Positions 9,749-14,154 of a stretch of DNA of 42,939 bases are shown here, piece after piece (the first letter of the stretch is position 1; the number at the start of each line of letters is the position of its first letter). A program made the position numbers and the translations under genes. Source of the DNA: Myxococcaceae bacterium (GTDB taxonomy: Bacteria > Myxococcota > Myxococcia > Myxococcales > Myxococcaceae); NCBI GenBank assembly GCA_017881265.1, contig JADGRA010000073.1:1-42939 (forward strand), in the 5' to 3' direction. A model generated the notes under the pieces. The model made no database searches, was not told the DNA's origin, and worked only from the letters and a program-made list of their open reading frames with translations.

Positions 9749-12307
9749 ATGGAGACGGCTCTGACCACCAGCGACGTGGAAGTCGAGAAAGCGCTCCGTC
9801 GCGATTTCGGCCCCGTCGGCCGCTGGCTGGCCAAACGCTACTTCTCCCACGTGCGCTTCTCGGCCGAGGCAGAGGCCGAGCTGCGGTCGCGCTCGGAGCG
9901 CGGCTTCATCGTCCACGTCCAGCGCACCAGTTCCTGGGTGAATTTCCTCTACCTCGCTTGGGCCCTCACCGTTCGCCGCCTGCGTCCCATCCGGGCTGTC
10001 GTCAACCTCCGCCCCTGGATGGTGCGTCCTTTTCGGCGTACCGCGCAGACGGGCGACTGCGCAGTCCGTTTCGCTTACGCGCAGCGAAAGCAGGGCTCCG
10101 CGCTGGTGTTTCTGCAGTCCACCGTCCTCGGCCGGGCGCTCGGCCGCCCCGGGCCCGACAACCCCTTCCCCGCCCTGGTCGCCCTCGCACGGAAAAGCGA
10201 ACGGCCGGTGTTTCTCATCCCGGAGCTCTTCGTTTGGGAAAAGTGGAACGTCCGGCTGAAGCCCGCCTGGGCGGACTACGTCTTCGGAAGCCCGGAGGCG
10301 CCGGGCTTTCTGCACTCGGTGCTGGCCTTCTTCCGCAACTACAAGCGGGCCCAGTTCCGGGTGGGCCAAGCGATTGACCTCACCGCCCTGGTGAAGGCTT
10401 CCGCCGACCAGTCCGACGCGGTGCTGGCACGCAAGGTGCGCAGCATCCTGCACGTGCATCTAGCAGCCGAGACGCGCACCGTCTTTGGTCCCCCCTTCAA
10501 GCCGCCCGAACGCGTCATCGACGAGACGCTGCGCGACCGCGTCCTGCGCCGGAGCCTGCAGGTCATCTCCGACACGTCGGGCCGCAAGCTCGAGTCGGTG
10601 CAGCGCGAGGCGCGCCGCGACCTCAACGCCATCGCGGCGCGGCTTCACCCGACAGTGCTGGGGGTCGCCAACCCGCTCATGAGTCTGGTGTTCCGCTTCA
10701 TGTACGACGGCATCGACGTGGACGAGGCTGGCCTGGAGAGCGCAATGCGCGCTGCCCAGGGCGCCCCCATCGTCCTGTGCCCCTCCCACAAATCCCACAT
10801 CGACTACCTGGTGCTGTCCTGGGCCCTCTGGCACCGCGGCTACCAGGCGCCCCTCGTCGCCGCAGGCTCCAACCTTTCCTTCTTCCCACTCGGCCCCTTC
10901 CTCCGCCGCTGTGGGGCCTTCTTCCTGCGACGCACCTTCGGCGGAGACAAGGTCTACACCGCCACCTTCAAGGCCTACGTCCGCAAGCTGGTCCGCGACG
11001 GCGTGCACCAGGAATTCTTCCTGGAGGGCGGGCGCTCCCGCACCGGGAAGCTGCTCCCCCCGAAGCTGGGCCTCCTCACCTGGGAGGTGGAGGCCATTCT
11101 CGATGGAGCGCGGGATGACTTGGCCTTCATCCCGGTGTCCATGGACTACGAGAACGTCGTGGAGTCGAAAAGCTACTCGCGCGAGTCTCTCGGCGCGGAG
11201 AAGAAGCCCGAGGACTTCAAGGCCCTTTTGACCGCGCCCCGCGTGCTGGCCCGACGGTACGGGCGCATCCACGTGACGTTCGCGCCCCCCGTCCGTCTGC
11301 GCGAGCTGATGCGCAGCCGCGGGCTGGAGGACCCGGCCACGGTGAACGAAGAGCAGAAGCGGGCGCTGGTGCGGGCGCTTGCCTACCGCGTCATGTTCGA
11401 CATCGCTCGCGTCTCGACGGTGACGCCTCAGGCGCTGGCGGCCACGGCTCTCTTGTCCTTCCGGGGACGTGGCATCCCGGCGGCGGAGCTCGGTGCGCGG
11501 GTGGAAGTGCTTCGCCGCGTGGCCGAGTCCGAGCACGTGCCGCTGGCGTCGGCCCTGGTGGGCTTCGGCTCGGACCCAGCCTCCCCGGGGCCCATCCGAG
11601 AGGCGCTCGCCGGGTTTGCCCGTGAGGGCGCGGTCCGCCTCACCGAGGCGCGGGGCCAACCGGTGTACCAGGCTGTGGAGGACCAGCGCGTGGCGCTCGT
11701 CTTCTACAAGAACAACCTGATGAATCTCCTCGCCCCCCGCGCGCTGGTGGCGGCGGCGGTGCGCGCTGGGCCGCCGGGGGATTTGGCCAGCGCGGTGGAG
11801 TCGCGGGCACTCTTCCTCTCCCGCCTCTTCAAGGTCGAATTCCTATACCGGGTGGGTGCGCCCTTCGAGGAGATTTTTCGGGAGACGGTCGACCGCCTCG
11901 TCGCCGAAGGGCTGCTCGAACGCACCGATGGGACGCTGCGGGTCGCGCCGCGGACCGAGGCGCAGCACACGATGGACTTCTACGCCGAGCTGCTGCGGGA
12001 CTTCCTCGAGTCGTACCTGCTGGCGGCTCTCACGTTGGAGGACGTCGCCAAGGCCGAGAGCATGGACCGAAAGTCCTTCATCCGCACCGCCCTTGAAATC
12101 GGCAAGGCCGAGTACCTCGCCGGGCGCATCCAGGCGAAGGAGGCCCTCGCCCGCACCAATATGGAGAACGCCCTCGCCTACTTTCTCGAACGCAGGATTC
12201 TTCACGGCACGGAGAAACGCTTCTCGCTGGGCGCCGAGTACGCGACGGACGCGGCGCGGCGTGCCGTCGCCGACGAGGTCCGCCGCTACCTCGTCAGCGC
12301 CCTCTGA
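9749..12307 (+). CDS. plsB: Glycerol-3-phosphate 1-O-acyltransferase
   Basis: This is a membrane-associated enzyme that puts the first acyl chain on sn-glycerol-3-phosphate to make lysophosphatidic acid. The 852-residue product is close to the PlsB family size (about 800-850). All acyltransferase blocks are present: HKSHIDYL with the HX4D pair His347/Asp352, GSNLSFFPLGPFLRR, FFLEGGRSRTGKL (about 423-435) and FIPVSMDYENVVES. The N-terminal third and the C-terminal helical part (LLRDFLESYLLAALTLEDV) match the PlsB domain layout. ATG 9749 lies 21 bp after argS. It is convergent with the TGA-containing thioredoxin gene, 128 bp away. Confidence 0.94.
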   Translation: METALTTSDVEVEKALRRDFGPVGRWLAKRYFSHVRFSAEAEAELRSRSERGFIVHVQRTSSWVNFLYLAWALTVRRLRPIRAVVNLRPWMVRPFRRTAQTGDCAVRFAYAQRKQGSALVFLQSTVLGRALGRPGPDNPFPALVALARKSERPVFLIPELFVWEKWNVRLKPAWADYVFGSPEAPGFLHSVLAFFRNYKRAQFRVGQAIDLTALVKASADQSDAVLARKVRSILHVHLAAETRTVFGPPFKPPERVIDETLRDRVLRRSLQVISDTSGRKLESVQREARRDLNAIAARLHPTVLGVANPLMSLVFRFMYDGIDVDEAGLESAMRAAQGAPIVLCPSHKSHIDYLVLSWALWHRGYQAPLVAAGSNLSFFPLGPFLRRCGAFFLRRTFGGDKVYTATFKAYVRKLVRDGVHQEFFLEGGRSRTGKLLPPKLGLLTWEVEAILDGARDDLAFIPVSMDYENVVESKSYSRESLGAEKKPEDFKALLTAPRVLARRYGRIHVTFAPPVRLRELMRSRGLEDPATVNEEQKRALVRALAYRVMFDIARVSTVTPQALAATALLSFRGRGIPAAELGARVEVLRRVAESEHVPLASALVGFGSDPASPGPIREALAGFAREGAVRLTEARGQPVYQAVEDQRVALVFYKNNLMNLLAPRALVAAAVRAGPPGDLASAVESRALFLSRLFKVEFLYRVGAPFEEIFRETVDRLVAEGLLERTDGTLRVAPRTEAQHTMDFYAELLRDFLESYLLAALTLEDVAKAESMDRKSFIRTALEIGKAEYLAGRIQAKEALARTNMENALAYFLERRILHGTEKRFSLGAEYATDAARRAVADEVRRYLVSAL

Positions 12308-12435: not shown

Positions 12436-12966
12436 TCAGCGCATCGCTGCCGGGGCCTGTGCGGCGGCGCGCGAGGCGGTGGCGCCAGGTCGCAGCAGCT
12501 GCTCGGCATGGAACTTGAGCTCGGCCTTCGAGGCGGTCCCCAGCCGCGACACCACCTGGCCCGAGGCGTCGATGAAGACGGTGGCCGGCACCGTGTCCAG
12601 GGTGAGCGGGCCGAGCACCTCGGACTCCGAGGTCGCCACCGGCAGGTGCAGCTTGAGGCGCTCCACGGCCACCCGGACGCGCCGCGTGTCAGTCTCGAGC
12701 GAGACGGCGAGGAAGTGGACGGGCGTGCCCGCCATCTCCGCCGCCACCGCGTCCAGCTCGGGCAACTCCCGAGCACAGGCCCTTCAGGTGGGGAGCCAGA
12801 AATTCACCACCCAGGCCGACCCCCGCATCTGCGCGGCGGTGAGGTGCTCCCCGGACATCCTCTGCACCGCAAAGCTGGCCGGCAGGGGGAAGGGCGTGAA
12901 GGGCTTGCCACGGCAGGCGACGGCAAGCAGGGCCACGGCAGCAAGGAAAGGGAGGAGGCGGCGCAT
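12436..12966 (-). CDS. Thioredoxin-fold (TlpA-like) lipoprotein with in-frame TGA at the catalytic Cys: probable selenoprotein
   Basis: Read through the TGA at 12786-12784, this gives one 176-residue protein. It begins with the signal MRRLLPFLAAVALLAVAC (lipobox A-V-A-Cys18). A TlpA-like thioredoxin domain follows: WVVNFWLPT, the TGA codon (residue 61), then Arg-Ala-Cys64 and ARELPELDAVAAEM. Downstream come HFLAVSLETD and the cis-Pro segment DTVPATVFID. The layout N-F-W-x3-[TGA]-x2-C superimposes on the N-F-W-A-S-W-C-G-P-C of CcmG at 29918-30472. The TGA therefore stands for the first redox Cys, as selenocysteine would. A SECIS-like hairpin follows (12756-12774). It would act as a periplasmic-side disulfide reductase or peroxidase-like lipoprotein. 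Alternatives are a Cys-to-stop mutation or a sequencing error. Confidence 0.75.
12756..12774 (-). promoter_or_regulatory. Candidate bacterial SECIS hairpin downstream of the in-frame UGA
   Basis: In the minus-strand transcript GCUCGGG (12774-12768) pairs perfectly with CCCGAGC (12762-12756) around the 5-nt loop AGUUG. Sixteen nucleotides separate the UGA (12786-12784) from the loop, and the second loop base is G. Bacterial SECIS elements bound by SelB lie inside the coding region just after UGA. The accepted pattern is a small apical loop 16-37 nt from UGA with a G among its first two bases, which this meets. The pairing is seen directly; SelB binding is inferred. Confidence 0.6.
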
Positions 12967-13041
12967 GGTGAGGCGGACGGAGCGTCAACAGGCTTTCACA
13001 GCGGTCCCGGGGGTGGCAAGTTCCCGGGCCGCTTCCGCTCC

Positions 13042-14154
13042 GTGAATACCATCCTGCGTCCGCCTGTCCCACCTCAGCGCCTGGCGTGGACTGCGCTCGC
13101 AGCGTTCCTGGCGGCGTCGGTGGGCGGCTTCCTCGTGGAACGGCTTAACCCGGCCGTCGGCGTGTGGTTCAACGAAGTCTTCTGCGTGCTGGGGGTGACG
13201 TGGGCCCTCACCCGGTGGAGCGGACGCGCTCCGGCGGCCTACGTGCGCCTGTCTTGGCCGGGCTGGCCCACCGTCTTCTTCGCCGTCGCGCTGGCGCTCG
13301 CGAATTTCTTCGGTCTGGCCGCCCCCATCAACGCCCTGAGCGAGCACCTTGCCCCGCAAAGCTGGCGGGACTCCGTGGACATCACCCACGTCATCGACCA
13401 GTTTTCCCGGGTGGACCTGTGGCTCTTCTCTGTCGCCACAGTGGTCGCCGCGGCATTCTGCGAGGAGTTCCTCTTCCGCGGCGTGCTGCAGCAAGGTCTG
13501 GCCGCCTCCGGCGCGCATCCCGTCGAGGCCATCTTCCGGGCGGCCCTCATCTTCGCCTTCATCCACCTCAACCCGGTGTGGTTTCCGGCGCTGCTCGAGC
13601 TGGGGCTCCTCTTCGGCCTGCTCTACCACCGGACGGGTTCCCTTTTGCCCGGCATGGTGGCCCACGCCACCACCAACGCCACCTCCCTCGGCCTCTACTT
13701 TCTGGGACGCAACGAGGCGCCGGACGCGGCCGGGGAGATGTCGGCCACCCAAGTCATCGGCATGGCAGGCATGGGCATCTGCGTCCTGGTGGGCCTGCTG
13801 CTCTTGGCCCGGCACTTCCCCTCCGTCTGGGGCAAGCCTAGGCCCACGCCCTTCGAGCGGCCGCGCATTCCCCTGGCCCGCGCCCTCGCCCCCTGGTTGG
13901 TGGGGGCCTCGGTGGGCATCCTCGGCTGGTTCCTGGTCGACCGCCGGGGCGTGGAACTCGGCGTCGTCGACTGGCGCGTCGAGCTGCCCGCACCGCGCGA
14001 GGACGAGCCGGCCGAGGTCCGTTCGGCACGCGCGGATTTGAAGGCGCTGCGCGACAGCGTGCGCACGGGGAAGGCTCCGCTGGACAGTTACCTGGCAAGC
14101 CGCCGCGCCCTGGCGGAGCGCACCCGGGCCATCCCTACCCCCAAGCCACCCTGA
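13042..14154 (+). CDS. CPBP (CAAX/Abi-type) intramembrane metalloprotease
   Basis: The 370-residue integral membrane protein has about eight hydrophobic segments. It carries the CPBP motifs: FCEEFLFRG (Glu141, Glu142, Arg146), FAFIHL with His175, and VAHATTN with His208 and Asn212. These match the Rce1/Abi family of intramembrane proteases, whose bacterial substrates are mostly unknown. The C-terminal 70 residues (after about 300) form a charged tail PREDEPAEVRSARADLKALR that is probably helical. I chose GTG 13042 because upstream residues are low-complexity and overlap the divergent thioredoxin gene. The two genes start 75 bp apart. Confidence 0.85.
   Translation: MNTILRPPVPPQRLAWTALAAFLAASVGGFLVERLNPAVGVWFNEVFCVLGVTWALTRWSGRAPAAYVRLSWPGWPTVFFAVALALANFFGLAAPINALSEHLAPQSWRDSVDITHVIDQFSRVDLWLFSVATVVAAAFCEEFLFRGVLQQGLAASGAHPVEAIFRAALIFAFIHLNPVWFPALLELGLLFGLLYHRTGSLLPGMVAHATTNATSLGLYFLGRNEAPDAAGEMSATQVIGMAGMGICVLVGLLLLARHFPSVWGKPRPTPFERPRIPLARALAPWLVGASVGILGWFLVDRRGVELGVVDWRVELPAPREDEPAEVRSARADLKALRDSVRTGKAPLDSYLASRRALAERTRAIPTPKPP

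Follow-up and report, generated by a model that had tools for sequence, protein, structure and literature searches.

The stretch of DNA analysed here (the window, 42,939 nt of a contig of a Myxococcaceae bacterium) almost certainly harbors a real selenoprotein gene, in which the UGA at codon 61 would be decoded as selenocysteine (Sec) and which is predicted to encode an exported, lipidated thioredoxin-like redox protein with a UxxC active site. A preliminary description had proposed a selenoprotein at this place, and the proposal gains support from the Sec machinery of the genome, from recurrence of the TGA in other genomes, from purifying selection and from a hairpin behind the codon. A sequencing error, a pseudogene or a true stop codon are effectively excluded because the ratio of non-synonymous to synonymous substitutions (dN/dS) stays low after the TGA.

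Reading frame and genomic setting

The gene is located on the minus strand at positions 12966-12436 and comprises 176 codons followed by a terminal TGA (12438-12436). Re-reading of the sequence reproduced the coordinates and features initially given for this frame, including its lone internal TGA at 12786-12784 (codon 61), which is flanked by NFWLPT and RACARELP. The third-position GC content of the frame is 0.91, as expected for coding sequences in this genome, versus 0.70 for an overlapping antisense ORF. In an alternative reading this plus-strand ORF (12508-14154, 548 aa) is the true gene, of which the minus-strand frame would be only the shadow; in its favour, the ORF is open across the region and its C-terminal part matches Rce1-like CAAX proteases. 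However, the Pfam protease match covers residues 303-391 only, a plausible start codon (GTG 13042) lies outside the lipoprotein gene, the third-position GC content favours the minus frame, and the lipoprotein recurs in many genomes without this protease as a neighbour; homology on the minus strand already refutes the reading, which is vanishingly improbable. Automatic gene callers may nevertheless choose the long start of the 548-aa ORF and thereby hide the selenoprotein gene.

The selenoprotein gene lies by itself between a convergent glycerol-3-phosphate acyltransferase gene (plus strand, 9749-12307) and the divergent CAAX-type protease gene, also on the plus strand, whose start is probably GTG 13042. 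A minus-strand ORF (12985-13815) was considered as an upstream operon partner and dropped, having no Pfam match and lying opposite the protease gene. Scans of the region for promoters and terminators found nothing. The same gene order occurs in two genomes of one other genus, and no neighbour points to a substrate because most orthologues have other neighbours. In several orthologues (L031, L032, L028, L035) the ATG is preceded at about 7-12 nt by a TATA-like hexamer (CATATAG, CATATAA), and a clear Shine-Dalgarno sequence is lacking; both features together suggest a putative leaderless mRNA in these orthologues.

Protein family and active site

With the TGA read as a residue, residues 31-140 of the frame match AhpC-TSA (PF00578; 9.7e-10, 38.9 bits, cut-off 26) as well as Redoxin (PF08534; 3.7e-8, 33.7 bits, cut-off 26.6). 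In alignments with the structures 3kcm, 4nmu (ResA) and 2lja the first catalytic Cys stands opposite the TGA, in agreement with the earlier placement of this codon at the first Cys of a CxxC motif. These matches show a predicted fold of the TlpA/ResA-like thioredoxin family; the assignment rests on sequence profiles because the single-sequence AlphaFold2 model was too poor for use (mean pLDDT 43.6). On the window protein, all matching curated NCBIfam models stay below their cut-offs. ResA (NF002854) scores 55.4 of 170 bits and TlpA (NF047696) 35 of 230 bits, and an identity as ResA or TlpA proper was rejected on these scores. The WAxxUGC selenoprotein model (NF041054) yields 31.4 bits where 300 are required, the motif here being UxxC and not UGC.

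The second Cys, the lipobox and the cis-Pro, initially described as present or intact, are invariant across 29 aligned homologues. The resolving Cys64 of the UxxC motif is encoded at 12777-12775 and the cis-Pro127 of the thioredoxin fold (TVPAT) at 12588-12586, so that the catalytic dithiol and cis-Pro arrangement of the fold is present, the first Cys being replaced by Sec. The signal peptide (residues 1-17; 12966-12913 including Cys18) consists of a hydrophobic stretch ending in LLAVAC and leads to the lipobox Cys18, a predicted lipidation site in all 29 members. Residue 19 (12912-12910), lipoprotein position +2, is Arg in this copy versus Asp or Glu in most orthologues, and membrane sorting of the window protein could differ accordingly.

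Orthologues carry TGA or Cys at codon 61

Among 145 genomes searched within the same order, a separate group of orthologues emerged, with about 34-48% identity. Codon 61 is TGA in 26 members, the window and 25 other genomes, and TGC in three; a search of the phylum added G155 as the fourth member with Cys, and no other genome outside the order matched at 1e-25. The TGA members are spread over many genera and belong to three families (f1, f7, f8) of the order. Nothing other than TGA or Cys was found at this codon in the aligned members, and the invariant positions of the 29 aligned homologues include Cys18, W57, P59, U/C61, C64, R66 and cis-Pro127. Bacterial selenoproteins are expected to have an in-frame UGA where homologues have Cys, and this pairing is seen in 26 TGA and 4 Cys members and against the CxxC of the ResA structures. 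In the genome_contigs collection the only match was weak (31% over 51 residues), and the matches in the plasmid collection were all below 60% identity, those with names being annotated as ordinary TlpA/ResA-type proteins. One genome (G137) carries, besides its Sec copy on contig C9, a more distant Cys copy (L129 on C5, NCGQC).

The preliminary description had left room for a Cys-to-stop mutation or a base error. A single substitution in a Cys codon would indeed give TGA, and this is the only lesion in the gene. A base error is nevertheless untenable because 26 genomes carry the same TGA, and recurrence across species and many genera already refutes a broken gene. Relatives show no scattered lesions, and the purifying selection beyond the TGA, the SECIS hairpin and the full Sec machinery likewise speak against this explanation, which we regard as extremely improbable.

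Selection before and behind the TGA

In eight close to moderately close pairs of genes, dN/dS calculated by the NG86 method was below 1 both before the TGA and after the SECIS, and in most of the eight it was lower after the SECIS than before the TGA. Examples for the part after the SECIS are 0.105/0.581 and 0.051/0.235; the pair of the window gene and L024 was left out as too diverged. With dN/dS below 1 after the SECIS, the part past the UGA is therefore under constraint and translated.

Selection also shows in the synonymous codons of the hairpin. Among 132 scored columns the strongest synonymous conservation of the dereplicated members is found at codons 66 (CGG in 14/14) and 69 (CCC in 14/14), both of which lie in the stem. 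Codon 68 is TTG in all 21 Sec members with Leu and TTT in all five with Phe (26/26), codons which elsewhere in these genes account for 2.3% of Leu and 1.7% of Phe, respectively; the Cys members with Phe or Leu at this codon use TTC and CTC. The naive probability of the codon-68 pattern is about 2e-24 for 14 dereplicated members with shared descent ignored. The hairpin overlaps the codons of a conserved peptide, ARELPEL, whose conservation could explain that of the hairpin in part, but not the rare codons. As judged from codon usage, it is the hairpin that forces these otherwise rare codons.

A bSECIS-like hairpin follows the UGA

The hairpin GCUCGGG-AGUUG-CCCGAGC (12774-12756) has a perfect 7-bp stem that begins 9 nt past the UGA, with the apical loop starting at 16 nt. 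It folds with -12.5 kcal/mol (z -4.25), and none of 200 shuffled sequences was as good. Published limits for bSECIS elements are a stem of 4-16 bp, a loop of 3-9 nt, a distance of 16-37 nt from the UGA and a minimum free energy of at most -7.5, with a G within the first two loop positions that is usually followed by G or U (as stated in PMC13188914). All values of the present hairpin fall within these limits, its loop AGUUG having G second and then U, and its spacing of 16 nt lies at the lower end of the range. In members with Phe68 an extra A-U pair closes the loop (GGGA-GUU-UCCC), which corresponds to the N1/N2 pair of the model as given there (PMC13188914).

Across 17 distinct Sec sequences, 98.3% of the cells are paired, compared to at most 58% in slid versions. 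The compensatory changes form a thin covariation signal, with two pairs changed on both sides and 3 cells with a both-side change. At this place the three Cys orthologues tested give only weak folds (z -1.25, -0.75 and -0.08), no or little better than shuffled sequences. A longer context of 61 nt gave z 0.45, again no better than shuffles, and only the local hairpin folds well. No curated Rfam family was found in the region. A genome-wide pattern for further copies of the apical SECIS motif was also tried and rejected as unspecific, with 19 matches versus 11 for the reversed control.

Selenocysteine machinery and the Sec/Cys exchange

The preliminary description had suggested a search for the sel genes, and selA, selB, selD and tRNA-Sec were each found in the genome from which the window derives (4.4 Mb, 95.7% complete). 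The selB gene scores above the curated cut-off and its product combines the beta-barrel of SelB with two winged-helix domains of the SelB type, selA matches at 6e-162 and selD at 8.5e-113. The tRNA-Sec lies above the Rfam gathering score and is also called by ARAGORN, with anticodon TCA (UCA in the RNA). From these matches, the known parts for making and inserting Sec are therefore all encoded by this genome. The selD gene has its own in-frame TGA (HCAG-*-AAK) at the usual Sec site of selD and is itself a selenoprotein gene (L010:1531-1533 on contig C49 of G000; HCAG-U-AAK); the hairpin GGCGCAG-GUC-CUGCGCC after its TGA also resembles a bSECIS.

Low-rate misreading of UGA as Trp occurs in some bacteria, and the UGA might accordingly be read as another residue, such as Trp or Cys, by near-cognate suppression. 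Such a reading has to be set against the presence of a cognate tRNA-Sec, SelA and SelB, the alternation of the site with Cys only, and the SECIS at this place; we consider it very unlikely, and decoding as Sec remains the preferred reading.

A selB match was found in 25 of the 26 TGA genomes. The exception, G123 (82% complete), has no selB match, yet selA and tRNA-Sec are present. Among the Cys members, G091 (98% complete) and G124 (87%) are without selA, selB and tRNA-Sec at the thresholds used, G128 possesses all three, and G155 has a tRNA-Sec and no selA match at 1e-30. The chance that both trait-less genomes fall among the four Cys members is 6 in 435 (0.014) under random labels with kinship ignored. 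When the Sec and Cys states were placed on a tree, 61 of 500 shuffles were as low, and the tree alone does not show the course of the Sec/Cys changes. Genus g8 offers a separate observation: G077 (reported as 100% complete) has no selB match, and six other genomes of the genus (G078-G083) have selB; this may reflect a recent loss of the Sec trait in G077.

Cys at the TGA site in relatives without Sec machinery also bears on a genuine stop at the UGA, with the downstream part translated separately by re-initiation. A TTG start codon (12765) does open a downstream ORF of 109 aa, and two peptides would result. A split at the catalytic residue would, however, leave no working thioredoxin, and the hairpin matches a SECIS; re-initiation is consequently given very little probability compared with read-through by Sec insertion.

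Discussion

The course of events best supported by these data begins with SelB, carrying Sec-tRNA(UCA), binding the hairpin 9 nt downstream of the UGA, upon which the ribosome would decode UGA61 as Sec. We infer the actual insertion of Sec in this organism, and likewise the membrane location of the lipoprotein, from the sequence data. The product would be exported, lipidated on Cys18 and held at the membrane facing the periplasm, where the thioredoxin fold would present the U61-x-x-C64 redox site. There the selenolate of Sec61 may attack a disulfide substrate (or an oxidised or peroxide one), Cys64 would resolve the Se-S bond, and the site would be re-reduced, possibly via a membrane reductase of the DsbD/CcdA type. 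The genome of the window has one DsbD_TM protein, which could supply the electrons. A reducing rather than oxidising direction, the presumed electron donor and the presumed substrate are all taken by analogy from the TlpA/ResA family.

Annotation can easily turn genes of this type into a pseudogene or a pair of truncated ORFs. The present one brings a conserved and putatively Sec-dependent redox protein to a group of bacteria on whose selenoproteome we found no paper; our literature search, with most subscription journals outside its reach, found no paper on myxobacterial selenoproteins or on this protein. Because the lipoprotein exists naturally in a Sec and a Cys form, and because some genomes lack the trait, the benefit of Sec at an extracytoplasmic thioredoxin site becomes testable.

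A 2026 review counts 119 prokaryotic selenoprotein families or subfamilies (PMC13188914). Those listed include a UxxC "Redoxin family protein", a UxxC/UxxU "Prx-like thiol:disulfide oxidoreductase", a UxxC "thiol-disulfide isomerase-like protein" and a "UGC-containing TlpA"; representatives named in the review include HEU0032618.1, WP_010940744.1 and MGB1650493.1. According to its Table 1, UxxC redoxin/TlpA-like selenoproteins are thus a known kind, and the initial judgement that a lipidated TlpA-like UxxC protein would be unusual has to be softened in this respect. We consider it likely that the window protein belongs to a subfamily of periplasmic, lipid-anchored UxxC selenoproteins that is specific to the lineage of Myxococcaceae and neighbouring families and so far undescribed. 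This subfamily, with its own SECIS and with Cys where the Sec trait is absent, would give its bearers a redox activity dependent on selenium at the outer face of the inner (or outer) membrane.

With ResA, TlpA, StoA and CcmG(DsbE) (cd02966, PF00578/PF08534) the protein shares the thioredoxin-type domain, the position of the dithiol, the cis-Pro, and predicted export with membrane anchoring. It differs from them in having Sec for the first catalytic Cys and a predicted lipid anchor; its motif is W-x-P-x-U-x-x-C, whereas the ResA-type matches have W-x-x-x-C-x-x-C without that Pro, and the ResA, TlpA and StoA models all stay below their cut-offs (ResA at 55.4 of 170 bits). The ResA-like WAxxUGC selenoprotein (NF041054; the "UGC-containing TlpA" of PMC13188914) also has Sec in a TlpA-like domain, but with the spacing UGC instead of UxxC, and its model scores only 31.4 bits here (cut-off 300). 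Similar in kind are the "Redoxin family protein" with UxxC and the "Prx-like thiol:disulfide oxidoreductase" with UxxC/UxxU (PMC13188914, Table 1), which likewise have the motif in a PF08534/PF00578 domain and were predicted by Cys/Sec pairing and SECIS. Compared by description only, the window protein is set apart from both by its lipoprotein nature and its myxobacterial distribution, neither of which figures in their descriptions there, and on the sequence evidence it forms a distinct subfamily that, G155 apart, was found here only in this order.
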